64,000 nt of DNA, taken from contig NC_053046.1 in NCBI RefSeq assembly GCF_003473485.1, positions 15,138,001 through 15,202,000 of the forward strand, given 5' to 3'. Numbering within the stretch: position 1 is the first letter of the stretch; each line of letters starts with the position of its first letter. A program made the translations under genes and the position numbers. Shown here piece by piece: positions 22,515-62,439 of the stretch. The DNA comes from Medicago truncatula (taxonomy: Eukaryota > Streptophyta > Magnoliopsida > Fabales > Fabaceae). The notes beneath the pieces are model-generated. The model was not told where the DNA came from. It searched no databases and saw only the letters and a program-made list of their open reading frames with translations.

Positions 22515-22544
22515 TATCAACTACTTCAAGTAATTACTTGTCTT

Positions 22545-22809
22545 TTACTCATAGTCATCAGAACATGACAAATCTGTTTCTGAAGGCATAGTTGTGAGAG
22601 GAAGTTTCTTGCACATCAAGTGCTTGCGTCTCTGCAACATCAGCAGGACTAAAATACTATTTGTTGTTACAATTTTGTAATCAGCTTTTGTATACATGTT
22701 AAATAGAGCTTCATCAATCATTCTGCAATGCAAGTAAACTTCTCCTGATGAACTCATCCGAGAAATCAGTTCTTCACTCGCCTTTAGAAGATGCCATCCA
22801 ATGCCCCTC
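22545..22809 (-). pseudogene. Orphan third copy of the GNAT last exon
   Basis: A 265-bp segment preceded by the same TTCCCTTCAG acceptor as the other two copies. It has an open frame from the RGIGWHLLKASEELI motif to an identical SDDYE-type end and stop. No first exon lies upstream on this strand; the next sequence on that side is the duplicated kinase exon. It sits just upstream of the oleosin-GNAT promoter. Its frame is intact despite apparent lack of use, which points to recent duplication, or to use as an alternative terminal exon for the GNAT gene starting at 27696. Confidence 0.85.
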
Positions 22810-22934
22810 CTGAAGGGAAACACACTCTTAGAAAATTAGAATCAAACTATATTCAGGTGTGAAACAGACACTCAACATTTAGACATATATGGCACACAGC
22901 AGCAAGAGTTCAATATGTTTCACATTTATAAGCA

Positions 22935-23178
22935 GGTGAGGCACATACTGAATAACCACAGGAAGCTTCGTGAGGTGATAGATCTAGAGATGACTCGAAA
23001 TTCTTACTCCATTCAATCTATATTCATTTTTGCCAATCTGGCATCGAGATGTGTACGAACTGAACGTAATGAGTGGCATTCAATGGTGGATTGTGTAAAA
23101 GACATTCAAATGACTATCTACGCAAGTTCAAAAGGGGGCTTGGGAATGGCTATGAATTGCTTGAGACTGATCAAGTGA
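22935..23178 (+). pseudogene. Duplicated last exon of the PBL28-like kinase
   Basis: This matches kinase exon 7 from the acceptor onward (GCAG|GTGAGGCACATACT). The frame is open to the stop with clear similarity: VRHILNNHRKLREVIDLEMT against [20 protein letters not shown]. The conserved ERPS of kinase subdomain XI has become EWHS, losing its arginine. None of the six upstream kinase exons is present, so it cannot encode a kinase. It marks the left boundary of the duplicated kinase-GNAT unit. Confidence 0.9.
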
Positions 23179-24087: not shown

Positions 24088-27000
24088 TTATTCATAGTCA
24101 TTAGAAAATGGCACATCTGTTTCTGAAGGCATATTTATGAGAGGAAGTTTCTTGCACATCAAGTGTTTGCGTCTCTGCAACAACAGCAGGACTAAAATAC
24201 TATCTGTCGTTACAATTTTGTAATCAGCTTTTGTATACATGTTAAATGGAGCTTCATCAATCATTCTGCAATGCAAGTACACTTCTCCTGATGAACTCAT
24301 CCGAGAAATTAGTTCCTCGCTTGCCTTTAGAAGATGCCATCCAATGCCCCTCCTGAAGGGAAACACACTCTTAGAATGTTAGAATCCAATTACATTCAGG
24401 TGTAAAACAGACGCACAGTATTTTACTCGTTTGCTTAATCAAAAGACGTAACAAGCATTTGAAAATGCAAGCCATTAGAATTTCAGGAGGAGAATATATT
24501 TTTGATTACCTTAATCTTTATCTTGGATGCTATAAGTTACTATTATAGGCTTTTCCATAGCATGCATTGACTCAAAGAAAGTAGACCATGGGAAAATGTT
24601 AAAAAAAAAATAAAAAAAAAAAAAAGGAGCATAACAATATTTAAATTTAGAATCATACTCAAAACAATGTTACAATAGTTATAACAAGGATTATGTCATT
24701 CTCTCATTGAGTTGACATATTAATTTAGTTAAATAGTACTCCCTCCATCCCAAATTATAAGTCGCTTTGAGAAAACAAATTGACCCAAATTATACTCCCT
24801 CCGACCCAAATTATAAGTCATTTTGACCATTTTACACAGATCAAGAAATGTAATCAATTATGTATTGGAAAGAGAAATTATTAATAACTTTACAATATTA
24901 TCCTTCGTTAATGGTATTGAAAAGATAAATTAAAGAATTGAAAGAAAAGAGAGTAATAAATAGTTATGGTATAAAAGGAAAAATAACATCAATGTTTCAT
25001 TGGTATTGTAAAGCAACTTATAATTTGGGACAAATCTTTTTCCCGAAGTGACTTATAATTTGGGACGGAGGGAGTAAGTCGTTTTACAATACCAATGAAA
25101 CATTAATGTTACTTTTCCTACTATACCATAAACTGTTTATTACTCTCTCTTCTTTCAATTCTTTATTTATCTTTCTCATACCGTTAATGAAGGATAATTT
25201 TGTAAAATAGCATAATTTCTCTTTCCTATACAAAATTAATTACATTTCATAATGTGCGCGAAATGACCAAAATGAATAATTTGGGACGGAGGGAGTACAT
25301 TATTACAATTTGAAATTCATTGATGGTGACTAATGTAGCTTAACTATTTATATTGCAAGTTTCACTACTCATTTTTCTTTTGATGCAATGTTCATCTTTT
25401 TGTAAGATTGCAGCAAGTCAAATTTATTTCCCTACTCTGTCTGTGCTAAAAGTTCAAGTTCAAGCAAGGTAAAATTGCAGAAAGTATTTAACACTGACAA
25501 GAGTGTCTTTATAATTCACCCAAAAAATATCCTACTTAACCTAGCAGAAGAGTAAACAATTTATATCAAACAAGTTTCTAAATGCTCTTTTCACCCACTT
25601 CTAGCAGTTCTAGCTTTCACATCTATATACGCTCCGGGAGTGTTTGAATGAACAACTTAATTTAGCACTTATTGAATACATGTTTATGTATAAGCTATAT
25701 TTAATATCAAAGAGGAAACGTGGTTAATTTTTTTTCATATAAGTCATAAGCTGTTTATATAAAACCATCCTTAAGAGCTTAAAACAAGTTGAAATTGGCC
25801 TATAGACATGCCATAATCTATTTTCATAAGCTCTCAACACACTCACAAGTGGTTATTCTTATTCCAATAGATAAGCTCAAGTATCTTATTCACAAAGCAA
25901 TTAATGTGCAGGCGCAACCTTAATCTTTGAATAATGGAACACATTTAGCCCCTGAATATGCATTTAGCAACACAAATTAGTCCCAGAATATTGTATTATA
26001 TTGGTCAAATTTGTCCTCATGGTTCTTGACACTTGAGCTAAATTTACCAGAGAAATAAGTTCAGGGAACTCTGACACATTTCAATTATTTTTATCATTCA
26101 CATGTTTCATCATTCAAACTAGAGTGAAGAGGGAAATTGATCATCGAAATTGTGAGCATCAGTCAAAATAGTCCAAATATTTTGCAAATTTGATAAATAC
26201 ATCGCTGAAATCGTAACGAGTTAGTCAAAATGGTCCCTCTAATAACTTCTACGGTTAGATTGTCAATGACATAGTAAATGAATATGTGGTCTTCCACGTA
26301 AATCCTACACCATGGGGATTAAATTGAACATGAAATATATAAGTTAAAAATTAGTTAATGTGTTTGGATCCTGAAGTGATAACCCTAATGTTAACACGAA
26401 ATGCATAAATTTCACAATGGCAATCAAGCCTTATCCCACTAAGTGGGGTCGGCTACATGAATTAAACTACATCATAATGTTCTATCATAAACCCTATTTC
26501 GATCCAACTCGTTAATCTATATTTCTCATTAGTTTCTTTTATAGTTCTTCGAAGTCTTCCTCTAGCTATCCTCTATTTGATTTACTTTCCTTACCACAGA
26601 ATTTACACGTCTTCACTCTACATGTATTTAAATGACACCAAATGCAAGAATTTAACGTGCCACGTAAATTTCTAGTAATGTGGAGTTCACATGGAAGATC
26701 ACATGTTCATCTAACATGCAATGTCATAGGCTCTAATAGTAGAAGTTAACGAATAAACTATTTTGACTAACACGCTACAATGCTACAATTTTAACGATGT
26801 AATTGTAAATTCGTAAAATTCAGAGACTATATTAATCAATCCACCCAATATCAACCACTAATTTCCCTATTCACTCTTCAAATCAACTATACATTCTATC
26901 GGTAACCAAACTAATCCAACAAATGCAAATCAAGCCTTAAAGCATGTGTAATGTTTTTATACCTTCTAAGAGATTTATCCACAGCCATATTACAAATATA

Positions 27001-27696
27001 AGGCTTATCTTTCGGCGGATCAGGCGACGGAAGAGTAGAATTAGCACCATAAACATTAAAAGAAATCTCAACAGTCCCAGCCAATTGCATTTCCTCTTCT
27101 TCACCATCACCATTAACACCACTTCCTTTATAAAACGCAATCAACGTCGCCATATGCGGCATCAAACTCCTCCTTTCAATCAAATACTGTTTCACAAGAA
27201 ATCTCAACACATTAATATACCCTTTCGGAAACATCATCGATTCAGCGAAAGAATTCGCCAGCAAGCAAACAATAGCGTCAACTTCGCTGTCACGCATTAC
27301 TCGAACCCAAACCGTGCCGGATTTGAGGGTGTGAGTGTAAAGGTAAGTGGAGAGGTGGTGGAGGGTGGTGAGTTCGGTGTTTGTGAGGAATTTACCTGGT
27401 TTGAGGAAGGAATCGGTTAGGGTTTGGGATTGGGAGGAAGATGAAGTGGAGAAGAGTTTGAAGTGGGGGGGTTTGTTATGGGGAAGTGGGGGTGTGAAAG
27501 AGAAATTTCGGCGAGTGGTTTTGGCTGTGATGATGTTGAAACGGTTATGATTGTGTGGGTCCAAAGAGGAGAAAGAGAGTGAAAGAGTTGCGGCCATTGT
27601 GGGATTGAAGAGAATAGTTTCTGCGTTAATTGGGGGGCGGTGGTGGTTTGGATAATGAGAAGAAGAGGAGTAACATGGCATCATGTTCATCACCAA
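24088..27696 (-). CDS. GNAT-family N-acetyltransferase, probably plastid-targeted
   Basis: Exon 1 (27696-26963) and exon 2 (24352-24088) are joined across a 2.6-kb intron with proper GT/AG borders, giving 332 residues. The first ~115 residues are rich in Ser, Thr, Asn and basic residues and have few acidic ones, as in chloroplast transit peptides. The GNAT core follows: VRVMRDSEVDAIVCLLA, MQLAGTVEISF, and the acetyl-CoA loop formed exactly at the exon junction, SLRR|RGIGW (R-x-x-G-x-G). The substrate could be a protein N-terminus, a lysine or a small amine; sequence does not say. Arabidopsis At1g24040 is the probable counterpart by position and type. The intron is loaded with MITEs. This is the complete copy of the locus; the copy at 19541-22296 is chimeric. 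Confidence 0.9.
24739..25295. mobile_element. Stowaway-type MITE interrupted by another MITE
   Basis: The ends are CTCCCTCCATCCCAAATTAT and the inverse ATTTGGGACGGAGGGAG, flanked by TA on both sides (24737-24738 and 25296-25297), as for Tc1/mariner-derived Stowaway MITEs. Excluding the inner element it is about 275 bp. It lies in the GNAT intron. Confidence 0.88.
24795..25074. mobile_element. Inner Stowaway-type MITE nested in a relative
   Basis: A 280-bp element with ends CTCCCTCCGACCCAAATTAT and the inverse ATTTGGGACGGAGGGAG, flanked by TA (24793-24794 and 25075-25076). It lies inside the MITE at 24739-25295 and belongs to the same family, so it is the younger insertion. A very similar 280-bp copy is at 41943-42222. 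Confidence 0.9.
26120..26880. mobile_element. MITE-like foldback with long inverted ends in the GNAT intron
   Basis: The left part (AGTCAAAATAGTCCAAAT, CGAGTTAGTCAAAATGG-like, then a segment about a gene-silent ATGACAT) reappears inverted on the right around 26700-26850 (GACTAACACGCTACAATG and similar). The arms are diverged and borders are approximate. A LINE fragment sits between the arms. Confidence 0.5.
26416..26625. mobile_element. RTE-like LINE 3' fragment
   Basis: It contains GCCTTATCCCACTAAGTGGG followed by GTCGGCTACATGAATTAAAC, a phrase I know from the 3' ends of plant RTE-type LINEs. No coding part is present. Family assignment is from memory of that phrase. Confidence 0.5.
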
Positions 27697-27792
27697 TTGG
27701 ATTTTACTTACTGAATTAATAAAATAAAATAAAATAAAATACTAGTTTATAAAATACAAAAACAAAATAATAATGCTAAGATGATGATATTT

Positions 27793-30305: not shown

Positions 30306-31771
30306 TCACTCTTGAGTTCTTGGATTGTCCTCCCATTTCTTCATAATCTCCAGAAAAATCTCATTCCATGTGTCTATAGGTCCAGGCAAACACCAATGAA
30401 CACAATCATTCTGCACACGTTCTGGAACACCATTGGCAAATGGAAAAGGGTACATATAAGGACCTGGATGACCATCTGGTCTCAACAATGCCAATTTAGT
30501 TACATCAAGTGCCTCAAACCTAACCCCTCCAAATTCACTACCTTTCACCTTAGCATCTTCAACTTCTTCAACCTCAATTTTCCTCATCTCACTATCCATT
30601 CCTTCAAGTTCCTTCTCCCTACTTCTATAAGGCTTAGTCTTTGGACAAGCACCAGCTTTATCCCATTCACCTTCAAAATGAGCTGGTGAAAATGTTGTAA
30701 CTAGTACATCAATTTTACTACCTTTATTTCCTCTCCTATCAATTATACTATTAAGAGTAGTTCTTAAAGCCTTTCTCAATACATCATAAAACCCAATTTC
30801 AGTATGATTAAGACCAACACAATAATGACAACCTAAAACTGAATCACCCTCGTAGTAAACTGCGGGATGCAAAAACCAATGACCAATTGAAAGCACAATA
30901 AAATCCATTTTTTCCATATCCTTTGCCCATTTTTCATCAACAAGATCCAAATACAACTTATTATGATTTGGCCCGTCATTTGATTTCTCAACACCTTGAA
31001 CAAGAAAAGGGGACCAATACACCGACACACTTGCATTGTGAGAAACAAAATGCCACTTTCTAAATTTATTATCTTCACCGCTTGTGTAAACAAGATCAGG
31101 TGTTGAAACACTAGATAACAAACAAAGAAGTGACTCTAACTGGTTCCTAGCCATAGAATCACCAACAAAAGCCATGTGTTTGTTTTCAATGAATTGAAGA
31201 AAAGTGTTAGGCTCAAACCTTGGAAGCTTACATTCACTTGGTTTCCATCTCCAGTATAGATAACCAGAATCTGGTCTTCCATGTTTGATACAATTCTGTC
31301 CTTCTTTGATTGTTCCACATGTTGTTCCATTGTATAAAGGTCCTCTTCTATCACGGATCCATTTTCCATTGAAGTAGTCACATGTAGGGGTGTCAAAAGT
31401 ATTTTCCTTTTCTGCAATAAAGAACATTTTAAGTATTAAAGAACCAACAAATCTTAAATCTGAAGTTGCTAATCAAGATTTAAGACAAAACCCATTTGTA
31501 AAAACATGATTTTTAACTAGATAAGAGTATGAATAAACGTACCTAAAGGAGGAGGTGTAGAAGTAAAAGAAGGAGGTGAAGAGTGGGAAATGATGGTGGT
31601 AGTAGAATGAGGAAGTTCAGATTCAGTAGATGGAAGAAAGGGAAGAGGGTAGAGATATAAACTAAGAAGAGCAATGGGAAGTAGAGCATAGAGAGTCCAA
31701 GGAAAAAGTTTTTTGGTGAGGGAGTGGAGTTGATCTTTGAATGGGTTTGAAATACCCATTTTCATAACCAT
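30306..31771 (-). CDS. TBL gene 1: TRICHOME BIREFRINGENCE-LIKE wall polysaccharide O-acetyltransferase
   Basis: Exon 1 (31771-31543) encodes a short cytosolic tail and one hydrophobic anchor (LYALLPIALLSLYLYPLPFL), then a Pro/Ser/Thr-rich stem. Exon 2 (31411-30306) encodes the PMR5N domain (from CDYFNGKWIRDRRGPLYNGT) and the PC-esterase domain. The total is 444 residues. The catalytic signatures are GDS (in FVGDSMARNQLESL) and DxxH (DCVHWCLPG). Family members are Golgi type II membrane proteins that transfer acetyl groups to xyloglucan, mannan or xylan. The short stem and this sequence type point to the TBL19-26 group, but the polymer cannot be told from sequence. In its middle part (HYCVGLNHTEIGFYDVLRKA, IDRRGNKG) it pairs with TBL gene 3. 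It opens the five-gene array and diverges from TBL gene 2. Confidence 0.92.
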
Positions 31772-34697: not shown

Positions 34698-36795
34698 ATG
34701 AAAAGTACAATGAAAGATGATTCAATTTCACTCTCTAAGACCCTTCTTCCATATACACTTCATCTTCTACTTCTCATAGCTCTCTTACCCATTGTTCTTC
34801 TTTATTTATACTTTTACCCTTTGTCTCTTACAAAATCTCAAACTCAGCTTCACCATGCCACTAGTTCTTCTCCAACACATTATACAGGTATGTTAATGCA
34901 TAACTTTGTCTTCTTTAAACTAATCATGTGTCTCATATTATGTCTTTTTTTTAAAAGTAATTCACACTTGAAAATGATTAGGTGTTTTTTTTAGAGGAAA
35001 AATGATTAGGTGTTGAATTGAACACTAAAATGGTGTGTATAGTCTTAAAAAATCCATGTTAGTTAGAGTAGTTGAAAGTAGTGGTTGAATAGTTAAGTGT
35101 ACTATATTCAATTAAATGAGGTAATCATTGGAAACAAATTAGTAAATATTTTTTTGGTATTTTAAAATGACAAATAATTTTAAGATGAGAATTAAACAAA
35201 CACTTACAGTGAGAAAGGTAATATTTTTTAACAAATCACCACAATTAAGGCCTTTGGTCTCATACCACCTCATGATATCCGGTATAAGGTAGTTGCTCTT
35301 TAAGCCCTCCGTCTTGCTATGAAGCCCTCCAGATTTATCGAAAGATATATGTTTCGATGGTGTACTTTTTAACTCCTTTTATCTATTGGAATGTATGTTT
35401 CGATGGTGTATTTTTCTTGTTTTAAGCAACACATGGAACCTAAAGAGCAACCATTTACAAAATTGTCACGGTTTTGATGTTTTGGGCCGGTTAATGGGCC
35501 TCGGCCCTCGGCTCTTCACACTTTTAATGAGTGCGTCTTATAAGGACTGTACCTTTAAAACCTCTGATATACAATCATGGGTGTATTGTAAACTAAGCCC
35601 CTTGATTAGATTTATTTAAACTATTTTGAATATTAGAATTTAGATTTATACATGTAATTAACACATTGTTATTCTATTGACAGTAAATGACAAACACAAA
35701 ATTGATGAGCATCCATGTGACTACTTCAATGGAAAATGGATTCATGACAAAAAAGGTCCTTTATACAATGGAACAACATGTGGAACAATCAAACAAGGAC
35801 AAAATTGTATCACCAATGGAAGACCTGACTCAAACTACCTTTACTATAGATGGAAACCAAATGAGTGCAAACTTCCAAGGTTTGAACCAAACACTTTTCT
35901 CCAACTAAGCAAAAACAGACACATATCTTTTGTTGGAGATTCTTTAGCTAGAAACCAATTTGAGTCTCTTCTTTGCATGTTATCAACTGTTTCAAAACCT
36001 AAACCTGTCCACCATAAAGGTTCACATTGGTGGCATTTTCCTTCTCACAATGCAACATTATCTGTGTATTGGTCGCCATTTCTTGTGCAAGGTGATGAAA
36101 GATCAAAATCCGGGCCAAATTTTAATACAATACATCTGGATCGTGTTAACGAAAAATTGGCGAAGGATATGGATGGAATCGACTTGATTGTGTTATCATT
36201 TGGAAATTGGTTTATTAATGTTCCTTCAGTTTATTATGAGAATGGTTTGGTTTTAGGATGCTTAAATTGTTCCGGTTTCGGTCTTAATTACACTGATATC
36301 GGTTTTTACGTTCCATTAAGAAAGGCTTTAAGGACTTGTCTTAATGGCATAATTGAGAGGAAAGTTGCTAAAAGGAATGGAATTGGAGTAATTGTGAAAA
36401 CTTTTTCACCTTCTCATTTTGATGGTGATTGGGATAAGGCTGGAACATGTTCAAAGATTGAACCTTATGTAAAGGGTGAGAAGAAAATTGGAAAAATGGA
36501 AAGTGAGATTAGAAGGATTGAGATTGAAGAAGTGGAAAATGCTAAGAAAAAATCAAATGCATTTGGAGGGATTAGATTTGAGGTATTGGATGTAACTGAA
36601 TTGGCATTGTTGAGACCAGATGGTCATCCAGGTGCTTACATGAATCCTTTTCCGTTCGCGAACGGTGTTCCAAAGTATGTGCAAAATGATTGTGTTCATT
36701 GGTGTTTGCCTGGACCTATAGATACTTGGAATGAGATTTTTCTAGAGATGATGAAGAAGTGGGATTGGAAGGGACAACCAAGGAGTGAAGAGTGA
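34698..36795 (+). CDS. TBL gene 2
   Basis: Exon 1 (34698-34887) gives the anchor LHLLLLIALLPIVLLYLYFY. Exon 2 (35684-36795) gives the PMR5N and PC-esterase domains, 433 residues in all. GDS lies at 148-150, and DxxH (DCVHW) starts near 399. The first ATG in the leader, at 34687, is followed almost at once by a stop, so 34698 is the start. The intron (34888-35683, about 0.8 kb) is the longest intact one in the array and carries an unexplained GC-richer stretch near 35230-35600. It is of the same subtype as TBL gene 4: both have SKPKPVHH, and IERK in place of IDRRGNKG. Replacement of the usual LRTTLNS by LRTCLNG is peculiar to this copy. It converges on TBL gene 3. Confidence 0.92.
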
Positions 36796-38839: not shown

Positions 38840-40437
38840 CTAGCTAGGTTGTTCCTCCCATTTCTTTATAATTTCTAAAAATATCTCATTCCATGTATCA
38901 ATTGGTCCAGGCAAACACCAATGAACACAATCATTTTGCACATGTTCTTGAACCCCATTAAAGAATGGAAAAGGATTCATATAAGGACCTGGATGACCAT
39001 CTGGTCTTAACAAAGCCAATTTTGTTACATCCAATACTTCAAATCTTAACCTTCCAAATTCATTGCCTTTGGCTTTAGCAGCCACCACTTCTTCTATCTC
39101 AATCTTTCTCATCTCACCATCCATTCCTTCAACTTTCTTCTCTCCATTTCTATAAGGCTTAGTTTTTGGACAAGCACCAGCCTTATCCCAAGCACCTTCA
39201 AAATGATGTGGCGTAAATGTTGTAACAATTACATTAATTTCATTACCTTTATTTCCTCTTCTATCAATTATGCTATTAAGGGTAGTCCTTAAAGCCTTTC
39301 TTAATACATCATAAAACCCTATTTCAGTGTAATTAAGACCACAATAATGACACCCTAAAATTGTACCACCTTCATGGTAAATTGCAGGAAGCAAAAACCA
39401 ATGTCCAATTGATAGTACAATCATGTCCATTTGGTTCATATCCTTTGCCCATTTCTCATCAACATGATTCAAATATAGCTCATTATTTGGACTTGTGTTT
39501 GATTTTTCTATACCTTGTACTAAAAATGGAGACCAATACAAGGAAATGGTTGAATTGTATGAAGAAAAGTACCACCTAGAAAATTGATTGTCCTTGCCAT
39601 TTTGGTACACAAGTTTAGGAATTGAAGTAGTTGCTAACATACAAAGAAGAGACTCTAATTGGTTCCTAGCTAAAGAATCACCAACAAAAGCAATGTGTTT
39701 GTTCTTACTAAGTTGGAGAAAAGTGTTAGGTTCAAACCTTGGAAGTTTGCATTCATTTGGTTTCCATCTCCAATAAAGATAATCAGAATCAGGTCTCCCA
39801 TGTGTCATGCAATTTCTTCCTTCTTTCATCATGCCACATGTTGTATCATTGTACAAAGGGCCTCTAGTGTCTTTGACCCAATCACCCTTGGAATAATCAC
39901 ATTGGTTTTGGTGACCTTTTTTCTTTTCTGAAATAAAATAGTAAAGTTTTGTAAAACAACGGAACAATCCTATGAGTAAACAATCATTTTGGTCCATAAA
40001 ACATTGTCACTATTGTAGCCGAATATGACTAAATTACAAAAGCAACAAAATATATTTTTTGTTAAGTAATTTTATCGATTAAGATGATTCATGCACATTC
40101 GAACATCGAACTAATTAAAAAAATATATCAAAATCGATGATTAAACTATCTAAAAAAATATATATAAATTCAGTTTCGTTATACCTGAATAAGAAGATGA
40201 AGGAGGAGAAGCAGAATGAGAAGTGATGTTGATGATGGGTTTGGAATTAGTAATCTCAATTTTTGGAGCTTGAGAGAAAGGTAGATGGTAGAAGTATAGA
40301 AGAAGCATAGTTATGGGAAGCAAAGAACAAATAGTCAACGGTATAAGTCTCTTGGTGAATAAATTTGATTTATCTTTCAAAAAAATTGAAGTTCCCATTT
40401 TCATAGCTTTTTTTTGTGCTTTCTTTCCACTTCTCAT
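38840..40437 (-). CDS. TBL gene 3
   Basis: Exon 1 (40437-40185) and exon 2 (39927-38840) join in phase 1 to give 446 residues. The first ATG adds a lysine-rich tail, RSGKKAQKKAMK. An internal ATG at 40404 or 40398 would give an N-terminus like those of TBL genes 1 and 5 (MKMG/MG), so the start is uncertain. The anchor is ICSLLPITMLLLYFYHLPF. PMR5N starts at CDYSKGDWVKDTRGPLYNDT. GDS lies in FVGDSLARNQLESL and DxxH in DCVHWCLPG. A middle block (HYCGLNYTEIGFYDVLRKA, IDRRGNKGNEI) makes it the closest sister of TBL gene 1. Confidence 0.9.
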
Positions 40438-46559: not shown

Positions 46560-47170
46560 GTTCTTAAAAAGTGTTTCCTATTAAAAAACCATAATCTATG
46601 ACTCGCGTTTTATAAATTGTTCGATAATTTAAAAGCATTAGTCATTTTAAAAAAAATATCAAAACATAACTTATGGCTCACGTTTTTATTATAATTTTTC
46701 TAGAGATACAATAAGATCCAACAATCATGGAAGATAGAGATAGAAAAATAAAGTTTTGATCAAACAGACCCTTCTTGGACATTTCTTGGACCTTCCACTA
46801 AAGGGGTCTATTGCTTAGAAAACAATCGTGTTTCTAATATTATATTTCAAATAAATTAGTTGACCGTAAAAGTGTCTTTTATTTTATGTAGTAATGATCG
46901 ATTATCTTTAAGATGTTGAACAAGTCTTATAAAATTAATGCTCAATAAGAAATACTTCACTTTTTTAACCAATACTTCATAATTCTTAAAAGCATAGCTC
47001 ACGTTTTTATGAATTGTTGATAATTTAAAAGCATTAGTCATAGTCAAAAAAATACCAAAATATAATTTATGTACATATGAATCACGATTTATTAGAAAAT
47101 TTTCTGGATATACTACAAGATCCAACAATCATGGAAGAAAGAGATAGAAGAATAAAGTTGAAAGAGTTTA
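46560..47170 (+). repeat. Tandem copies of a TBL upstream block before TBL gene 4
   Basis: Two successive copies (about 46560-46765 and 46865-47165) share TACTTCATAATTCTTAAAA-like, GCTCACGTTTTTAT and, at the end nearest the gene, GATCCAACAATCATGGAAGA followed by a GAGATAGA..AATAAAGTT stretch. The same block lies inverted before TBL gene 5 (about 62620-62900). It could be promoter sequence, but only its conservation and position suggest that. Confidence 0.75.
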
Positions 47171-49257
47171 ATTTAATTCATCAGGAGTAAGTTGAATTCA
47201 ATTCAGTTTCATAGAACAAAGCCAAAAGGGACAATAGGAAAACACTTTGAAAGAAGATGGTAACAATTACAAACACATTCAAAGAAAAACTCACCAAAAT
47301 ATTTGTTCCCTCAATTTTCTATTCGCTGTTACTTGTAGCTCTATTTTGCCTATACTTTTACTTCCACTCATTTGCTCCATTTTTCACTCCCATCATCCCT
47401 CACCAATCTTCACTTTCTTCTTCCCCTCCTTTGAGAAAAGGTGAACTCACTAGCACTGTACCTTTGCTAGTGTCCATTGAATTCCATCTTTGAAATTATA
47501 GAGAATTATAAAAATTATTAGTGTTAGAATTTGATCGATATTTTTGAGGGGACAAATATATAATATGAACTAATCTTCTATGTATTCAAAGTTCTTTATT
47601 GTGTGTGTCGTCACCTTATAGATATTTTAGAAGAAATTTTTTGGAGTGTCTTACCTAGAAGAGATCTTCTCCTATAAAAGTTTTCTCCCGTGTAATGTTA
47701 ACTATTGTCTTTTTTTACTACATACAGTTTCAATAATTAAAACGCAATTGAATGGTGGAGATGGGCCTCAGATCTCCTCAGATCTCCCGTGTAATATTAA
47801 CTATTGTCTTTATTTTCTTATCAAATTAATTTTAGTCCCACTATAGTAACCCATATTTCAAAAACTTTGATGTCATGTCAACAAGTAAACCTTGATGATG
47901 CATCAAATTGCAGCACCGATTTTTTTTAAATCTTGTTTTTATTCATCAATTCACTATGCATATTTTTTGTAATCTTTGGCAGAAAGGGAAAAACCTCATG
48001 AGAAACCATGTGACTATTTCAATGGCAATTGGATTAATGACAAGAGAGGCCCTTTGTATAATGGAACAACATGTAGTGAGATCAAGAAAAGTCGAAATTG
48101 CATCGTCAATGGAAGACCTGACTCAAACTACCTATATTGGAGATGGAAACCAAAGGAGTGTGATCTTCCAATTTTTGAACCAAACACTTTTCTTACACTC
48201 ATCAACAACATGAACATAGCTTTTGTTGGAGACTCTTTAGCTAGGAACCAAATAGAGTCCCTTGTTTGCTTATTATCTTCTCACTACAAGAAACTTGACC
48301 TCTAGTGACGGGCAAAAACCGTCACTAAAGGCTATTTTCCGTAGGTATATGTGGCCAAAACTTTCACCCACGGCCATATTGGCCGTGCACTATACTTAGC
48401 AAGTTGCAACGGATTTTTGTCTGTAAGTGCATGTTTTACCTACGGACAGTACCTTTACCTACGGACGGGTTGTGTGTCTCTACAAGATTTTTCTACAGAC
48501 TAGTACTTTTACCTACAGCGTCTCTGGCCGTGGGTAAAAATCAATCCCACAATTTTTTTTTTTATAAAATGTCCCCCTTTTTTTTTAAAAACGTGAAACC
48601 CCCAAATATTTTTTGAGATATTATTTATTGTTGTTGCACTGTATTATATTTTTCTCCATCATACAAACTGGTTAATAACTATAAAAACAGTTATATTTCA
48701 TAAAAAAAATTGGTGGATTAATATTCTCAAGGTATTATTCACCAATCATCATATAAACTAAAAACAACACCAGAATATATTCTCAAGGTATTATTCACCA
48801 ATGTGGACAAATCATATAACTAAAGACAACACCAAATTACACAAAATGAGTTTTACTACTTATAAGATGCAGAAACTGACAGACACAGTTTTTATATGGT
48901 TCTACCCTATCAAGAACAATCATATACTTTTCTTCACATCATGTTCCGCCAAAACCAGATCATCTTCCTCTTCTCCATCAATGCACCTTAAAATAAGACC
49001 AAAAACAATTAACAGTTAGAGAGATGGATACGTTGTCATGCAATAAGTTGCCAAATTCAACATGCACGTTACGTCCGTGCATGTGCGCATGTGCAAACAC
49101 ACAAAGTCATCTGCCAAGTGATAAACTTATCTTGCACAGACATCTTTACCAAACTCGCAGTCACGTAAGTTTTAATTCATGACAAAGAAGAAGGAAAAAA
49201 GTTGCAGCTAGCATATAATTAGTGAACGCACATTTGCCCTCATTGAAAGATAATACC

Positions 49258-51032
49258 TTAAAAGTGCAGTGAACCAGTGCCACTTGTAGTTTGTTGATTA
49301 TTACCAATAGAACCATTTGGAGCACTTGCAACATCAGGTACCTAAGTGAAAAAAAGTGTATTTTATTTTCTTGAAAAACATTCTTGAAGTTGAAAAATAA
49401 GATTTATTACCTCTTGAGCTACAGCCTGTAAGACAGCATTAATTTGTGGATCATCAGAAAATCGCATTTGAAGCACAGCAACAAGATTTCCAAGTACACT
49501 TTCTACTTTTTGAAGTCTATCTTCTGAATTAGTGCGTTGAGATGAAATATTTGAACTAGCATGTCGTGGAAGTTTGCCAAGACAACGCACACGTCCTCTT
49601 CTTTCAGGCCCTTTCACTTTTGAGTATGTATCATTCATCCAATTTGTAGAATCTTCAGTGACTTGAAAATTTTCTGAATTTTCTACCTCTGCCATATGCT
49701 TCTTTAACTCCTCCTACATGAAGAACGTTACAGTGAATTTTCTTCTTGTAATCCAAGTAAGGTTCAAGTTATTAGTTACAAGGAAACTAAACTTAAGCAA
49801 GTTACTAGACAGTACACCTTTCATGAAATTTTACACAGTTCCTTACTCTAAATAAATATATCTTACAATTGTTGAAGCTGCCTTTTCAGTCACAATGCTC
49901 CCGTCTTTTCGAGTTCGGGTTTCAATATAAATTTCAGCTCGAGAAGGTTGCACTCCTATAGCCTTCGTTGTCTAAAATTTTGAATAAGAACAGTAAGCAT
50001 TCTATTTGCAAAACAACCTAGTTGAAAATACTAATAAAAGTCATACAAAGAAACATACCATCTCATGAATTAGCCTCGGAAGATTCTTGGTTCCCATGCA
50101 ATGTAAATCCTCATATTTTGAGCGATTCCTTTTGTTGATTTGACTTATTTTCTATAAACAATAAAATACGAAGCATTAAAACACAGTTCAAATAAATCAT
50201 TGTTGTTATTGTTGTAGTAGCTCTTGTTGCAGTAGCTGACTAGTCTAATTACCAACACAATTACAGAGTAAAATAGTGGGATGTAAATAAAAAGACGTGA
50301 CAGAAGCAATATTCTTAGATAAATTCAGCATTGAAAATAGGCAGTGCATTGAAAACAAACATATACCTTCCCTTCCTTGGAACACCAATGGTGCACTAAA
50401 GCACGATATTGGGACGGATCAACTCTTGTGTCAGGGATGATAGAAGCCATTTCCTCTTCAGTTTTGCTTTCATCATACCCTTTTGATTTCAAATCATGCT
50501 TAAATTGTCTCCACTTACTGCTCATGTTATCCTTTAGTATTTGTGTTGTTTGCTCGGTCAATTCAGGAACAAATCGGAACTTACTCTATTTATTAAAAAG
50601 CCAAATTGTTAGACATTTTGTAAAGTAATAAAATATCACAATAAATAAATGGAAATAAAACTTCAAAAATTCTACAAAGACCTTAATTAAATCAAACATG
50701 TTGGTAATATCAGTCTCAAGCATGTCTTTCCAAGAAATATGGTTGATAGGAGCACATTGGTGTCTCCTTACCAAGCTCCCTATTGCATTCAGTAGAGTCT
50801 TCCCTTCCCAACCCATGGGATTACCCAAACTATCCACTTCAATAAGTATAAATTCTCCATCAGGCATGTCCCATACATCTAACATATGTGTATAACCTCT
50901 AGTCTTCTTTTCACAATGGGTCTCACTATGACTTCCCTCTTTGTTGACTTCATTAGAACTATCAACTGATTGCTCTTTTTCTAGTGATGGGCCATCAGTT
51001 TGAACAACCTTCAACTTTCTCCGTCTGCCCAT
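49258..51032 (-). CDS. Second CACTA-encoded protein (Ptta/En/Spm, Transposase_24-type)
   Basis: Starting at MGRRRKLKVVQ, exons 51032-50682, 50585-50367, 50151-50059, 49971-49867, 49713-49411 and a last one from about 49341 all join in phase 0 with GT/AG borders, for about 385 residues. The exact end near 49258 is uncertain, and a further short exon is possible. Typical family features are a basic N-terminus, the central KWRQFKHDLKSKGYDE segment, the KRNRSKYEDLHCMGTKNLPR motif seen in TnpA-like proteins, and a C-terminal helical region (RTNSEDRLQKVESVLGNLVA) that may dimerise. Such proteins bind the subterminal repeats and assist the main transposase. Confidence 0.75.
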
Positions 51033-51184
51033 GGTACTTGCTTTAACTAAAAGATCAAACAATCAGTTTAGTTGCTGAGAATGTAAAATAAGAATTAGTT
51101 GCTGAAAATTCAAAATAAGAGTATGTAAAACAATAATTACCTCTTCAATTGAAATACAATGATCTAAAACTAGCAATACACACC

Positions 51185-54100
51185 TTAAACAAAATCAGTA
51201 AAACCATCATTAATAACAGGAAAACAAACATAGTCTTCCTCACTATCATCCCCTGTATCACAATCCTCATCATTTTGGGGGATGTCACTTCGGGGAATGT
51301 CCTCCATATTAATTTGAACTTCAATGATATCATCACTATCATCAGCTTCTGGTCTAATCAAGTCATTATCATTTATTTCTTCCAAGACTTGTTCATTTCC
51401 ATTATCTATAGCATTGGATTGAAGATCACCCAAATCATATACATCTCTAACCTTAGCGTGCACAACGACAAACCAATCCTTTTGTCTCTTATTCTCCACA
51501 TAGAATACTTTTTTGGCTTGAGAAGCAAAAATAAATGGGTCATCACATATATCATTGCCTGTATGTTGCAAATAATTAAAATTTACTAATGGCAAGCCCA
51601 AATTATCAATGCTGCAACCCCTATTTATGTCAACCCAATCACACTTGAAAAGTACAACTTTATATTTCCCTGCATAATCCAACTGAACTATATCTGTCAA
51701 TGCACCATAGTAGTTTATTTCTCCTTCTTTAGGGTGTTTGTCTCTTGAACTAGCATAACTTCTTGTCTTAACAGTAACACAAATCCCACTGTTTTGAGTC
51801 TTTAAGCACCTTTCACGCTTCTTTGTATGGAATCTAACCCCATTAACAATATAACCACTATAGTTTCTCACTATTTCTAGTGGACCACGTGCTAACCATT
51901 TGATTTCATCTGTGACAATAACACTTCCTTGCTCTTCCAATCGTGCGACCTAACACAATTTTATTTAAAATGATTATGAAATGAAACACAATATTGATAA
52001 TGGAAAAGCTTTGTAAAACTTACTCGTTCACGAAACCAATCAGAAAATGTTTGACAATGAATTCTGTCGAGTTCATATGGTGAGAGCCGACGATTTCGAT
52101 TTTGTCTCTTGATAAGATCAATGTGTTCTCTTTGAAAGGGGTCCACATTATTGTTGTTGAAAAGCACATATCTATGTGCTTGTATCAATGTTTTTTTATC
52201 AAGAGAAACTCGAGAAACTCTTCTTCTTTTCTTTACTTTGAACCCAATGTGGCTTTTTCTCCCCAATGGTCTACCTCTAGGATTAAAAAGACTTGAGTTT
52301 TCGACAAAAAAGGAATCATCATTTCGACTAGGTCGATTAAAACGAGTTTCCACTCCAGGGAGATACCGTGAACAAAATATCAAGCCTTCATAAGCTATAT
52401 AACTCTCTGCAATAGACCCTTCAGGATGTGCTCGATTACGTACAAATGACTTTAGAGTAAAAAGGAACCTACAAAAAGATTTTATATTAAAATAAGATAA
52501 TATCATTTTCTTTTATAAATTAGAATACTGTTAAATAAATAAACAAATTTCATACCTTTCAACGGGATACATCCATCGGTAATGAACTGGACCAGCAACT
52601 TTTGCCTCATATGCCAAATGGATTACCAAATGCACCATTACAGTGAAAAAAGATGGAGGGAAAATCTTTTCTAATTGGCACAACGTTTTAGCTACTCGAT
52701 GCTCCAAGTCCTCCAAATTATGCTCATTAAGCACCTTGCCACATAGCTCTTTGAAGAAATTACAAAGCTCACTTATAACTTTAGTCACTTTGTCGGGCAA
52801 ACAACCTTTCATAGCTATTGGAAGAAACTCTTGCATTAGAAGGTGATTGTCATAGCTTTTGAGGCCAGATATTTTGCGTTGCTTCACTTGCACACATCTT
52901 GGAATACTAGACAAATATTCATCTGGAGCTTTCAAATTCTTCAGCACTTCCAAGAATGATTCTTTCTCCTTTGATGTCATCTGATAACAAGCTCTAGGCA
53001 AATACTTTTTACCATTACATTGATGTATCCTTGGGTGTAGCTGACTTCTTATGTTCATGTCTATAAGGTCATAACGTGCCTTATCGTTATCCTTTGACTT
53101 TCGTTCTAAATGCAGCAAGGTTCCAATGATGTTATCACATACATTTTTTTCAATATGCATCACATCAAGATTATGACGAAGAACATTATATTCCCAATAA
53201 GGCAATGTGAACAAAATACATTTCTTTTTCCATGGTGACGGTGTCCCAATTCCATGTTCTTCCATTTGTTTCAAAGCAATAGTTCCATTGGGTAGCTCAG
53301 GTGGAGCTCGAAACTCTTGGTTTCCATCAAAATGTCCTTTATTGTATCTCCATTTATGGCCAGGCTCTAACCAACGCCGATTACACATATAACAAAACTT
53401 TCTACTATAACGCAACCACTTAGAGGTTGTGTCAAAACCACAACATGGACAAGCATATCGACCTTTCGTACTCCAACCTGACAAATTTGCATAGGCTGGG
53501 AAATCATTTATAGTCCACATGATCGCAGCACGCATTTGAAATGACTCCCTTTTACATGCATCAAAGGTTCTGACTCCAATTTCCCATAATTCCTTTAATT
53601 CTTCGATAAGAGGCTGCATATATACATCAATATTATTACCTGGACCTTTTGGACCAGGAATAAGCAACGAGAGTATGAAGTTTGGTTGCTTCATACACAT
53701 CCACGGTGGAAGATTATATGGAATCAAGACAACAGGCCAAGTGCTGTGAGAAATTGTCATGGTTTTGAAAGGATTAAAGCCATCAGAAGCTAAACCTAGT
53801 CGAACGTTACGAGCATCACGAGAGAAATCCGAATATCGACGATCAAAATCCTTCCAAGCAAAAGAATCAGCTGGATGTCTCATGAGTCCATCTTTAGATC
53901 GATTATCTTTATGCCATGTCATAAAAGAAGCTGTTTTCGATGACATAAAAAGTCTTTGTAATCTAGCCTTAAGAGGAAACCAACGAAGAACCTTTAAAGG
54001 TATCTTTTTTCTACCTTCCACATCATCTGAGTTAACTTTCCATCTTGAGAGACCACATTTAGGACAAACATTAAGATGAGCCAAATCCCTCCAATACAAT

Positions 54101-54798
54101 ATACACTCGTTTGGACAAACATGAATTTTTTCATATGATAAACCCAACCCCGAAATAATCTTCTTTGTCTCATAAAATGACTTAGGCAAAGTATTTTCCT
54201 CAGGAAATGCATCACTTAACAGTTCTAGCAACATTGAGAAGCTTTTGTCAGTCCATCCATTCATACACTTTAAGTGGTACAAGTGTACGATGAAGGATAG
54301 TTTTGAGAACTTACAACCGGGATAAAGATTTTGCTCTGCCTCCTTCAATAACTTAAAGAACTTTTTTGAATTATCATCCTCTTCAGATTGTTGAGCATTA
54401 TGGTTGTTTGTGAATGCTTCAGAACCCCTGTCCTCTATATTTGTATATGCATCATCATCATTATCGCTATTCGTATGCATTGGAAATGCATCATGAATTA
54501 ATGCATCCATGTCATGATCAAATTCGTGTTCTACTTCAGATGCACATAGAGGGTTAGAAGGGTTTTCTTTCTCACCATGAAAGATCCAATGAATATAACC
54601 TTTTAGAAATCCATGATTGATTACATGTTCATAGACATCCATCCGAGTACGCTTGTAGCAATTGACACATTTTTTGCAGGGACAAAAAATTTTCCCATTT
54701 TCAGATGAGTTAGCAAAAGCAAAATCCATAAAACTTAAAACCCCTCTAATGTACTCCTCCTTAGTTATAGATTTATTTGATATCCAACTCTTATCCAT
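51185..54798 (-). CDS. CACTA transposase (TNP2 / TnpD-type)
   Basis: Three exons (54798-52556, 52468-52024 and 51949-51185) with proper junctions give about 1150 residues. The start is MDKSWISN, usual for this family; an ATG 13 codons upstream is less likely. In order: an N-terminal transposase-associated zinc-binding domain (CPCKKCVNC), the TNP2 core (LGLASDGFNPF, WPVVLIPYNLPPWMCMK, CPCCGFDT, NLDVMHIEKNVCDNIIG), the DUF4218-type region (GCLPDKVTKVISELCNFFKELC, HYRWMYPVER) and a C-terminal DUF4216-type segment (FKCDWVDINRGC). The conserved DG...F and DVMHIEKN motifs are intact. It would cut at the 12-bp termini. No internal stop or frame break was seen, which is unusual for this large gene in plants. 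Confidence 0.9.
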
Positions 54799-54837
54799 TG
54801 TATAAAACAGGAGAGAGTCGAGCCGTGAGCTCTGCAC

Positions 54838-56490
54838 CTTATTTATGAGCCAATAAGGCTTATAAAACCCAAAAATCTCTCGAGGTTTCGTAGCTAGCTA
54901 GTAATAAATTCAACAGTAATACTTCATGCAAAATCAGTTGCACTACATAATCATACCTAGGATTTTAATCTATTTATCCAAAAGAGTCATAGTCCACTTA
55001 CGGTTGAGTGCTAAATCTAACAAAGCTGGTTTGCCGTGATCCTCGTAGACTATGACAGACACAGAACAACAACCAGAGCTGTTCCAAAAAATCTTTCGAA
55101 GACTTGACTTCTATACAAATCTTCTTAGCAACCTGCAATAGAAATAAACTCTGGAATCAATTTGATTGATGCTGATAGAAAAATCCTCATTTTCACATAT
55201 GTAACAGGCTACTAATGATTGATGAATATAGTTTTGAACTCCAATTCTAGCTCTTAACTTTGATTTACACACTCATATCATATGTTTTCCCTATCCAAAT
55301 TTTTATCATTATAGTGAATTCAAGTGCATAAACTAGAGAAATGTCATATTCAAATTTGCTTGTAGAGTGATTCCTTTTATAGACTCATTCATGTTTTTTG
55401 GTGCATAAACAACCCTTCAAAAGTTTTAAATAAAAGATGAAATATATCATGAATGTTATGTGAGAATTGATTCATATATTTATGAAGGAAATATTCATTG
55501 CAATCTAGCACCATATAACTTCTTTTTAACTATTATATACAAGTAGCTGTAGATGGCATATATGCCGTACATGCATACAACACTGTTGTTTTAGAATACA
55601 AACCCTTTTTCTTTTTCTTTTTTTTTACAAAAGAAGAGCTGCAACATATCATTAATGATTGGAACAGTAATACAAGTACTAAAATCATCATAATTGTGAA
55701 GGGTAACAAAATATAGAACACCCCCCTACCCCCACTAAGGTATGACAAATTACAAGAGTTTCTTTTAATTGCGAGACGCTTTTGTTGATAATCGTCTCCC
55801 GGATCTCGTATTGGTGTATTATCAAGTCATTCGTTTTAGTAGTTACTTTAGTCTTCCACACCAACTGCATTGAATTAGTGTGTGAACACTCACGTCGTAG
55901 ACTAGACCTCTTCCGTTCTACACGTTCAAATGCTGCTGCTATTGCTCCTCTGCCTCCAAATTTGGAACCACAGCCAGCAGCTCAGGTCTAAATATTCATG
56001 TGGCTTGCAAGGGGGTACTTGATCCACTAAAAGGTATTAAATCTAGGAGAGGGTTCGGAAAACACTCATAATACAAACAAACAAGCTCGTACAACTGCTG
56101 GATTCTGTTTTGAATTCTGTTTTGTATATAGGTACAAACAAGTTCATCCAAATCGAGCGAGCTCTAGGAGAGAAAAAAAGTATATAGGACCTAAAAGTTT
56201 ATTGAATTCTGTTTTGTTTTCCTTATTAATTGAGCAGAATAATGTATATGTTTCAATAGTTAGTTTATATGTGGAAAATCAATGTAAAAGTGTTGAGCAT
56301 AGGGCTGTGACAAATTCAAGCCATGCTCGTACAACTGCTGCATTTTTTGTAGCTCATTCGGATGATTGTAACGTCGAGCCAGCACAAGCTATCACTGATG
56401 AACATAATCCACCAATTTTCAAGTCCTTCAAATACAAGGATTTCAACTCTCACTACTTTAACAAATATGCTGACACAGACGTGGTGCTGA
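54838..56490. other. CACTA non-coding right-hand region
   Basis: Upstream of the minus-strand transposase gene. It probably contains the 5' untranslated sequence and introns of the element's transcripts. The plus-strand frame at 56202-56522 and other small frames have no family match. Nothing else is recognised. Confidence 0.45.
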
Positions 56491-56494
56491 AATC

Positions 56495-56745
56495 AGTTCA
56501 AAAACACATACACATAAACTGATTTCAAAATTCTACCAAAATCAAGTTCAAAAACACATACAAATAATCTGATTTCAAAATTTTTCCCAAAATTCAGTTA
56601 AAAACACACGCACATAAACTGATTCCAAAATTCTACCAAAATCCAATTCAAAAACACATACACATGAACTGATTTCAAAATTTTCCCAAAATCTAGTTCA
56701 AAAACACATCTACGTATACTAATTTCAAGAATAACAACACTATAC
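56495..56745. repeat. 48-bp tandem repeat near the CACTA right end
   Basis: Five degenerate copies of a unit like AGTTCAAAAACACATACACA followed by TAAACTGATTTCAAAATTCT, starting at about 56496, 56541, 56591, 56638 and 56688. Confidence 0.88.
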
Positions 56746-59568
56746 CTAATTACCACATTCATATCAAAAATTAAAACAAAGAGAACGAAAATTACTCACA
56801 GCGATTGAAAATGATCCAGAGCGAGTTCGAAGATCGGCGGTCCGACGGTCGATGAAGGCGACGATTGAGATTGATACAGTTTGAACAAAATCGATACAGA
56901 TTGATGTTGTGTTTGTTTTGACGGCAGAATGCACGCGCGTTTCAGCTTAAGCTTGAATATATAGCTTTTCAATATCACGTCCAAATTGCACGCAGAATCG
57001 ATTGTGAGCTTGAGAACGATTAAGAGCAAAATCGATTTGAAGATCCCTAAATCAATTTGAACAAAATACGAACAACAAAATCGATTTGAAAATCGATACA
57101 GTAGGGAATCGATTCAGAGCTTGATGAGGTTTGTGAGGTGAGATTGATCAATGGAGTTTCTAGGTTTGTGAGGGAATCGATATAGCTTAAGTTTGTGAGG
57201 TTTGAGATCAATGGAGTTTGTGAGATTTTAGATTGATGAAGAAAAAGCCATTTTGAGATTGATGAGCGTGTGAGTGTGAATGGTACGGTACGTGTTTGTG
57301 AAAAAAAAATCTCACTCTATTTGTAAAAAATATAACAATAATAATTATATAATAATATAATAGAAATAATAAAATAAATAAAATGGTTTTAGTGACAGTT
57401 TTTCATATGTCCGTTGGTAAAAACTACCCGCTTTAAAAAATGGCTGTAGGGACAGGGTACTTTTCTTGTAGTGTCTGCTTCAAAACCTAAACCTGTCCAC
57501 CATTTAGGCTCTGATGCAAAGTGGTATTTTCCTTCTCACAATGCAAACTTGACATTCTATTGGTCACCATTTCTTGTGAAGGGTGATCAAAGAAAAAATG
57601 ATGGGCCACAATATAATACAATATATTTGGATCATGTAAATGAAATGTGGGCAAGGGATATGGATAAAATGGACTTGATTGTTTTGTCATTTGGTCATTG
57701 GTTTTTGGACATTCCTTCAATTTACTATGAAGGTGATTCAGTTATAGGTTGTTTTAGATGTCAAGAATTTAAATTTAATTATAGTGATATTGGATTTTAT
57801 ATTCCAATGAGAAAGGCTTTAAGGACTACCCTTAATAGCATAATTGAGAGGAAAATGGTTAAAGGGAATAAAATTGATGTGATTGTGAGAACATACTCAC
57901 CTACTCATTTTGAAGGTGGTTGGGATAAGGGTGGTACTTGTTCAAAGAGAGAGCCATATGGAAATGAGGAGAAGAAACTTGAAGGAATGGATGCTAAGAT
58001 AAGAAGTGTTGAGATAGAGGAAGTGGAAAATGCTAGGGCAAAAGCTAAACAATTTGGATTAAATTTAGAGGTGCTTGATATAACAAAATTGGCATTGTTG
58101 AGACCAGATGGTCATGCTGGTGCTTATATGAATCCTTTTCCATTTGCAAATGGAGTTCCAAAATATGTACAAAATGATTGTGTTCATTGGTGCTTGCCAG
58201 GACCTATAGATACTTGGAATGAGATTTTGTTGGAGATGATGAAGAAGAAATCTGGATCATCGAGGAGATGATCCGGATACGTAAAGAAGGGGGAAAACGA
58301 TTAGAATATCTTATGTGTTAATGTGTATACTTGTGAATGATTAGTCGATGATTGTATACGATAAAAGTACATTATTGACTGTGTCTTTCATTCATTTCAT
58401 CAATGATTTATGTATACACAAAATAATCTTCAATTTGATTCTCATGATAATGCATTTATCTCATATAAAATTATAAAAAATATAAACAATCTTAATAGAA
58501 ATTGAAATACTACTACTTCCTTAAAATCAAAATCCCCATTGAATGATGCTTCACGATGAAAAATTAGTATGATGATGAAATTAAGAATATTCTTGTTTCT
58601 GTGAGAGAACTTCCATTATTATTGTGCAGAACACATGTGTATTTTTTATTCCTAACTTTATTCTTATCAAAAAGTCTAAAATATTGTATTTTAAAAAGTT
58701 AGTTAAACTCTTCTTTTTCTTTGATTATTTTGACTTGAACAACACTTTTTATTTTTTTTTACAAAACATGGATCACATGATACCATGCAGTTGCTTTTAT
58801 TTATTTATTACTGATTTTTTTTTAAGGAATCTATTATTGATTACTATTGTGTGCGGATTGTAAAGATAAGAAAACATATATTTTTTTTATTCTAAAAGAG
58901 TGGGCTATTTCATGAGTTTGGGTCCCCTCTTTCATTCAAATTGAATGGTTCAACGAACATTAGTTTCAAAAAAATTCTTAAATATGTAATTCATAAAGAG
59001 TAGTGATACATAGACCACCTTAGATGGCATGTACCACTTATACACTCATACACAATTGTGACATGTGTCCATGTGGTCCCCACATACACAAGAAACTCAC
59101 ATTCACACACTCTCACATGGGAGTGGTACATAGTGTGTATGCAGAAAAGGGTGTTCATGAAACATTATCCTTTATAAACATGGCAACACATTGATGTATC
59201 GATGTAGCACCCTCATCAATGTCCTCACAAAAGCTTCAAATTGCGACATTACTAAAGGGTTGCAATGGTAAAAAATAGGTCAACAATCATAATCTGAGGT
59301 TAAATCAAATCTCATCTCATAAGTATAGAACTCTTAAAGCATTTTCATCATATTCCCTACACCGAGCACAACTATGGGATAAAATACTTTTTTTGTTATA
59401 AGCTTTGTTCTAGTTGGTAAGCAGTCTCTTAGCATGCACCATATAAAATTCTTCACAATAAGGTGGCTTCCACATTCCAAACTATGGACCAATCACTATA
59501 TAAGGCAGAATTATTCATCAAATTATTTAAACTTGAACGAATTTATCTAAAATAAAATTATGAAAATT

Positions 59569-60994: not shown

Positions 60995-62439
60995 TTACTC
61001 CCACCTCTTCATCATCTCTACAAAAATCTCATTCCAAGTATCTATAGGTCCTGGCAAGCACCAATGAACACAATCATTTTGTACATATTTTGGAACTCCA
61101 TTTGCAAATGGAAAAGGATTCATGTAAGGACCTGGATGACCATCTGGTCTCAATAATGCCAATTTAGTTACATCCAACACCTCAATTCTAATACCTTCAA
61201 ATTTATTAGCTTTTGTCTTGGCACTTTCCACTTCTTCTATCTCAATCCTTCTAATCTCACCATCCATTCCTCCAACTATCTTCTCCTCTTTTCTATAAGG
61301 CTTAGTCTTTGAACAAGTACCAGCCTTATCCCAATCACCTTCAAAATGAGCAGGTGAAAATGTTTTAACAATCACATCTATTCTATTTCCTTTAGCAACT
61401 TTCCTCTCAATTATACTATTAAGGGTAGTCCTCAAAGCCTTTCTTAATGGAACATAAAAATCAATTTGAGTATGATTAAACTCAGGACAATTCAAGCTAC
61501 CAAGAACTAAATCACTCTCATAGTAAATTGAAGGAAGCAAAAACCAATGGCCAGTTGATACAACAATCATGTCCATTTGATCAATATCCTTTGCCCACCT
61601 CTCATTGACAAGATCCAAAAACATTGTATTATAATAATTCCCTTCATTTGATCTTTCAACACCATGCACTAGAAATGGGGACCAATACAAAGAAAAGGTA
61701 GCATTATGAGAAGGAAAGTGCCACTTACGAAATTTATTGGACTTGCCATCTTGGTAAACAAGGTTAGGTGTTGAAGTAGTCGATAACATGCAAAGAAGTG
61801 ACTCTAATTGGTTCCTAGCCAAAGAATCTCCAACAAAAGCTATATGTTTGTTCTTAATGAGATTGAGGAAAGTGTTTGGTTCAAACCTTGGTAGATTACA
61901 CTCACTTGGCTTCCATCTCCAATAAAGATAACCTAAATCAGGTCTACCATTTGTGATGCATCTCTCACTTTCTTTGATTGTACCACATGTGGTGACATTG
62001 TATAAAGGGCCTCTCATGTCACTAACCCAATCTCCATTTGAATAGTCACATGATTTCTCATGATCATAAACCTTGTTCTTCCCTACAAAAAATATATTAC
62101 ATAAAAATTAGTAAACTAAGAAGTCCTTAATTAGTATAACAAATTGCTAGTTAGAGTTCATGACAATCTCAACTAGCATGATATTTAAAAGAACTAATTA
62201 ATTATGCATGCATATTTACCTACAAAAGAAGTTGAAGGAGGAGAAGAGTAAGTAGATGAATAGTGGTAGGTGGAAATGGTGGTAGAATGAAGAAGCTTAG
62301 TTGGTGCAAAAGGAGTAAGGGACAAAAGGATCAAGTATATACAAAGAAGGGATATGGGAAGCAATGAATAAAGAGTTAAATGAAAAAATTTCTTATTGAA
62401 GGAGGAAAGATTATCATTGAAGGGGTTTGTGCTTCCCAT
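60995..62439 (-). CDS. TBL gene 5
   Basis: Exon 1 (62439-62220; start MGSTNPFNDN) carries the anchor LTLYSLLPISLLCIYLILLS. Exon 2 (62082-60995) continues in phase 1 with GKNKVYDHEKSCDYSNGDW, giving 435 residues. The codon at 62445 is TTG, not ATG, so 62439 is the start. PMR5N, GDS (FVGDSLARNQLESL) and DxxH (DCVHWCLPG) are all present. The front half of exon 2 resembles TBL genes 1 and 3 (LVYQDGK, KFRKWHF, GHWFLLPSIYY). The back half resembles genes 2 and 4 (FYVPLRKALRT, IERKVAKGN, IVKTFSP, GTCSK). It is therefore a mosaic, probably by gene conversion within the array. Confidence 0.92.

Follow-up and report, generated by a model that had tools for sequence, protein, structure and literature searches.

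A structurally complete CACTA (En/Spm-type) element in exon 2 of a Medicago truncatula TBL gene, with evidence for recent movement of its family

A structurally autonomous CACTA element has very probably been inserted recently into exon 2 of a Medicago truncatula TBL gene that was intact until then, and the insertion would have disabled that gene. The window, by which we mean the whole stretch of 64,000 nucleotides that was analysed, is C5:15138001-15202000 of a 430 Mb genome assembled in 42 contigs, 8 of which are of 43 to 65 Mb. The element and the interrupted gene are made up of the following features, the 5' end of the element being placed at 57473 because its transposase genes are on the minus strand.

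48282..57473, minus strand: CACTA (En/Spm) element of 9,192 bp, 5' end at 57473
48279..48281, no strand: left copy of the target duplication (TSD), TCT, one Ser codon of the TBL gene
57474..57476, no strand: right TSD copy, TCT, matching the left copy
48282..48293, plus strand: left 12-bp TIR, CACTACAAGAAA, found by comparison of the ends
57462..57473, minus strand: right 12-bp TIR, which reads TTTCTTGTAGTG on the plus strand
47257..47440, plus strand: TBL exon 1, open, with its ATG at 47257 and an N-terminal membrane-anchor-like part
47983..48281, plus strand: left half of TBL exon 2, with PMR5N, the GDS motif and the start of PC-Esterase
57477..58271, plus strand: right half of TBL exon 2, with the remainder of PC-Esterase to the stop and the DxxH motif

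The proposed course of events is as follows. The element would have entered exon 2 by the cut-and-paste integration usual for its family, with a 3-bp duplication, and the target, a TBL gene (polysaccharide O-acetyltransferase-like), would have been intact until that moment. Translation would now meet an in-frame TAG inside the element, by which the gene would be disabled. With two nearly identical full-length copies and one internally deleted copy, the family would have the anatomy usual for two-component systems, TNP2 doing the cutting and a TNPA-like protein binding to the subterminal repeats. The function of these proteins, the continued mobility of the element and the prior expression of the TBL gene are what we infer.

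The original prediction had described a CACTA insertion in a TBL exon at 48279-57476. The insertion is real: the 12-bp TIRs are perfect, exon 2 is interrupted, and the interval given is the element (48282-57473) plus both TSD copies. The two TIRs match at 12 of 12 bases, with the first mismatch at position 13, and the 3-bp TSD (TCT/TCT in the window) falls exactly on one Ser codon, as had also been claimed; this agreement between TSD and codon phase would arise by chance one time in three and is no evidence by itself. The 12-mer of the TIR was counted 915 times genome-wide versus 114 times for a reversed control, and therefore the TIR alone is not family-specific. A chance pair of TIRs is excluded by a near-identical full-length sister element at another place. 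When 18 other places (20 regions) were fetched and the 8 without a recovered end were left out, matching 3-bp TSDs were found in 10 of the 11 copies with both ends recovered, the window copy included.

The coding sequence on both sides of the element can be read as one gene. If the two halves are joined at the empty site, exon 2 has 363 codons without an internal stop, and the insertion lies between codons 99 and 100. The joined exon aligns without a gap over 361 aa with a paralogue at C8:48.38 Mb (L022) at 82.8% identity, and six further close paralogues (L023-L028) likewise span the insertion site, so that the two half-exons are undamaged and in the same frame, as had been proposed. Within this single reading frame both PMR5N and PC-Esterase are found, together with GDS and DxxH, which we take to be motifs of the TBL family. 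The window gene shares all four with TBL genes and differs from them by the interruption in exon 2. In the Pfam profile of PC-Esterase, the first 39 positions are matched to the left of the insertion and position 56 to the end on the right; that the missing positions represent a deletion is ruled out by the gap-free alignment with L022 across the site. The 3' end of exon 1 was set at a GT donor that preserves the frame into exon 2, and over 60 aa, with a single gap, exon 1 shares 75% identity with its counterpart in L022. The interrupted frame stops at a TAG at 48303-48305, which is 7 codons into the element and precedes most of the PC-Esterase domain. The allele is thus most likely null for acetyltransferase function, as predicted from its reading frame.

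Some function could have been kept, as in suppressible alleles, if splicing treated the element as an intron of the TBL gene, through the acceptor TTTTCTTGTAG at its right end. That end does resemble a splice acceptor, and there is a precedent in soybean, where a CACTA element within an intron was correctly removed by splicing in a plant line in which its methylation is higher (PMC4219821). However, only one of the 13 GT sites in 48150-48419 keeps the frame (48160), at a cost of about 40 codons that include the GDS motif, while the other 12 lead to a stop. On these donor frames, with one acceptor tried, intron-like removal was rejected, and we regard it as very improbable.

The gene might also have been dispensable or non-functional before the element arrived, in which case the insertion would be without consequence. 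Redundancy is plausible here. The window has four related TBL genes whose frames are open, at 30327-31094 (-), 35992-36762 (+), 38861-39622 (-) and 61004-61729 (-), and others are found elsewhere in the genome. The local TBL cluster surrounds the broken gene, yet three closer relatives are on C8, C3 and C7. TBL redundancy is likely, since there are four related genes in the window and three closer ones elsewhere. An intact second copy of this same gene was not found in the genome with 47000-48281 as the query, the longest other match being 76% identical (C8), and the best other protein match to the gene is 83%. Against prior dispensability, neither half of the gene has a stop or a frameshift, and there is no clear excess of amino-acid changes. 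With L023 as the outgroup, the private nonsynonymous:synonymous changes are 24:13 in the window gene versus 23:12 in L022; with L024 as the outgroup they are 25:10 versus 21:14, which, with so few changes, would tilt only slightly towards relaxed constraint. A comparison of the window gene with L023, again with L024 as the outgroup, gave 23:11 versus 35:23. In pairwise comparisons the window gene has dN/dS values of 0.34-0.52, with the exception of 1.13 with L024, and the odd branch behind this value is L024's own. On these counts the split gene gives no clear sign of prolonged drift, which would lend independent but weak support to a recent event. We therefore consider dispensability or loss of function before the insertion rather unlikely and keep to a gene intact until its interruption.

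The paralogue L024 (C7:12080668-12081438) has 49:7 nonsynonymous:synonymous private changes, or 37:8 when other references are used, in contrast to its relatives (24:13 and 23:12). The pattern suggests relaxed or positive selection on this paralogue, or gene conversion.

Inside the element, the following features were annotated.

51185..54798, minus strand: TNP2 transposase gene model of 1,150 aa, exons 54798-52556, 52468-52024 and 51949-51185
49258..51032, minus strand: TNPA-like gene model of 384 aa with PF03004 (Transposase_24), in 6 exons, 51032-50682, 50585-50367, 50151-50059, 49971-49867, 49713-49411 and 49341-49258
48337..48536, no strand: left subterminal region, in which the motifs ACCTACGG/CTACGGAC are repeated in both orientations, candidate TNPA-binding repeats
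55770..56287, plus strand: probable fragment of a captured host gene, with blocks of 76-84% identity to a gene cluster at C3:27.87-27.96 Mb

The element had been said to contain two open transposase genes, and in the predicted models this is upheld: both the TNP2 and the TNPA-like model are open throughout, and every modelled intron is GT-AG. In Pfam searches the TNP2 model contains PF13963 (Transpos_assoc), PF02992 (Transposase_21, E = 1.1e-96), PF13960 and PF13952, with DUF4218 and DUF4216 among these domains, and the spliced TNPA-like model reaches PF03004 at E 6.7e-28. Conserved acidic columns were defined from 11 other TNP2 sequences fetched from the genome, all 11 of which were used, with the window sequence outside the definition. 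The window protein keeps all 13 columns that are unanimous among the 11 others, and 15 of the 16 in which at least 10 of the 11 others agree on an acidic residue; the lone change is D to T near residue 719. No solved structure resembling the TNP2 exon-1 protein by sequence was matched (phmmer, threshold 0.01).

Allowing at most one mismatch, CTACGGAC occurs 4 times in the left 300 bp versus a mean of 0.14 in shuffled sequences, though the motif was chosen after inspection. None of the 2,000 mononucleotide shuffles reached 4 matches, a control that flatters the enrichment because the motif is post hoc, and the right 400 bp has a single 1-mismatch match to this motif picked after inspection. The segment similar to the C3 cluster is probably a host gene fragment captured into the element, a direction of transfer that we infer; in the cluster from which it probably came (the L038-L041 region), two open frames have no Pfam match. 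At window position 49049-49057 (768-776 of the element), the window copy and two of its relatives (L001 and L002) are without about 316 bp of sequence, delimited by a direct repeat of 9 bp, which is present in L003, L005, L008, L009 and L011 and is represented by about 216 bp in L007. This difference is an insertion or loss within the element family.

CACTA TIRs, a 3-bp TSD, TNP2 and a TNPA-like protein, four of the defining features of the En/Spm type, are all present; for a fifth, subterminal repeats at both ends, the left end has candidate repeats and the right end a single 1-mismatch match. The original assignment to the En/Spm type agrees with this, and a structurally complete element is supported by the TIRs, the TSD and the predicted TNP2 and TNPA-like genes.

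Genome searches with 619 bp from the left end and 974 bp from the right end of the element gave at least 40 and at least 41 matches, respectively. Among the matches listed, a full-length right-end match of at least 97% was found at three places: in the window, on C3 and on C2. The C3 place, L001 (C3:22412728-22421944), is a full-length sister copy which has its own TSD, AAA, and flanks that differ from those of the window. It was found by the search for near-identical copies elsewhere that had been proposed for this element, and it differs from the window copy by a 25-bp indel and, in 9,192 aligned bases, by 3 substitutions. At least two near-identical full-length copies are thus present in the 430 Mb, the window copy and L001. 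The extra 25-bp stretch of L001 is absent from both the window copy and L002. Two of the three substitutions are coding differences, and both are missense changes in TNP2, the first exon of which is open in both full-length copies. P246S is derived in L001, and G92E is derived in the window copy and private to it among the copies compared; G92E was polarised by L001, L004 and L011, and the P246S/G92E call rests on two outgroup copies. The third difference, at 57183, arose in the window copy as judged by L001 and L002 only.

Near-identical repeats of 9.2 kb are hard to assemble, and one element could have been placed twice, or the insertion could be chimeric. However, the flanks differ, the TSDs differ (TCT and AAA), and there are private substitutions on both sides besides the 25-bp difference. 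Duplication in the assembly was rejected on these four grounds, and an assembly error of either kind is extremely improbable. Different flanks and an own TSD also argue against an origin of the C3 copy by segmental duplication.

The C2 place, L002 (C2:30267180-30270713), is an internally deleted copy of 3,534 bp which differs from the window copy at 4 of 3,534 bases. Its deletion of 5,658 bp covers the whole TNPA-like gene and TNP2 except about the first 37 coding bases. Its 12-bp ends are intact, and it has no target duplication (CCA/AAG); because the TSD is missing, L002 may have been rearranged after insertion, or may be a recombination product between copies, rather than the result of a simple fresh insertion. 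On C6 there is an older copy (L003/L004), with about 14 kb of other sequence between its two parts; it is 99.1-99.8% identical in long blocks up to element position 6864, and 86% identical at the right end.

From these copies the age of the movement can be evaluated. Three substitutions correspond to a separation of the window copy and L001 of about 11,000-23,000 years at assumed mutation rates between 7e-9 and 1.5e-8 per site and year. The Poisson limits are about 2,200 and 68,000 years, a wide interval because there are three substitutions only. The divergence of copies dates transposition within the family, and the TBL insertion itself could be older, should the window copy have been the donor. 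From the intactness of the 1,089 bp of TBL coding sequence, no tighter limit than about 2.5 million years (95%) can be set to its age, under an assumed substitution rate and an indel rate assumed to be one tenth of it. Recent mobility of the element family, as judged from the copies, is well supported. The phrase "very recently active" of the original prediction therefore stands at the level of the family, which appears to have moved recently, L001 being on another chromosome with its own TSD and 3 differences in 9,192 bases.

Whether movement continues is another matter. A family that was mobile recently and is now silenced, with the insertion as a stable null allele that is perhaps fixed, is a reading to which we incline somewhat, and it disputes present activity only. 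Only two near-identical full-length copies were found among the matches listed; with 3 differences in 9,192 bases, the last event may lie thousands to tens of thousands of years back, and the insertion may be older still should the window copy have been the donor, its bound being only the 2.5 million years above. Nothing contradicts this reading, although TNP2 exon 1 is open in both copies and the window models are open throughout. A still-active two-component CACTA system, represented by two full-length copies and one deletion derivative, together with an unstable, polymorphic and revertible TBL allele, seems doubtful to us.

In maize En/Spm, both proteins are produced from one alternatively spliced transcript. 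By comparison, the two proteins of the window element are modelled as separate adjacent genes, its subterminal motif is ACCTACGG-like, and it is known from sequence alone. On the other hand, as far as partial sources describe En/Spm, the two share the CACTA TIR, the 3-bp TSD, a TNP2-type transposase, the Ptta/En/Spm domain (PF03004) and internally deleted derivatives. En/Spm transposition requires both TNPD and TNPA, according to the available part of PMC2613891. The same part describes soybean Tgmt*, a legume CACTA element of 20.5 kb which is likewise within a gene, has a 3-bp TSD and could encode both functions. It differs in its imperfect 13-bp TIRs, its larger size and its location in an intron, whereas the window element is in an exon and is so far a sequence record; and the Tgmt* transposase is placed there nearer to transposases that go with TNP1 (PF03017) than to the ones that go with PF03004. 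Soybean Tgm9, in what was available of PMC5552171, is also a legume CACTA element inside a gene. Tgm-Express of soybean resembles the window element as a CACTA element carrying host gene fragments, going by the accessible portion of PMC1947982; unlike it, the window element has one short probable fragment in a non-coding part and has kept its transposase genes. No title on a CACTA element of Medicago was found among the papers listed in literature searches outside subscription journals, and the word Medicago is absent from the main text of PMC4158355. The mechanism itself is textbook, and the element adds another case to the known En/Spm type.

Elsewhere in the window, a 341-aa open frame at 21436-22461 (-) contains an almost complete oleosin domain (PF01277, E 1.8e-28, with positions 1-100 of the 113 in the profile matched). 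It continues in frame into a piece which, over 191 aligned positions, has 51% identity (E 1e-52) with the adjacent open frame at 26911-27741 (-). This oleosin-containing frame is possibly a chimeric gene.

The search for an endogenous active transposon in Medicago truncatula could start from full-length CACTA copies that are structurally complete and nearly identical, and the value of an active element for making knockouts is illustrated by Tgm9 of soybean in the available part of PMC5552171. If the system were in fact still active, genes could be tagged with a DNA transposon native to the genome, and no transformation would be needed. Should the TBL insertion be polymorphic, accessions that carry it and accessions that lack it would amount to a naturally occurring knockout of a gene of the cell-wall acetylation type.
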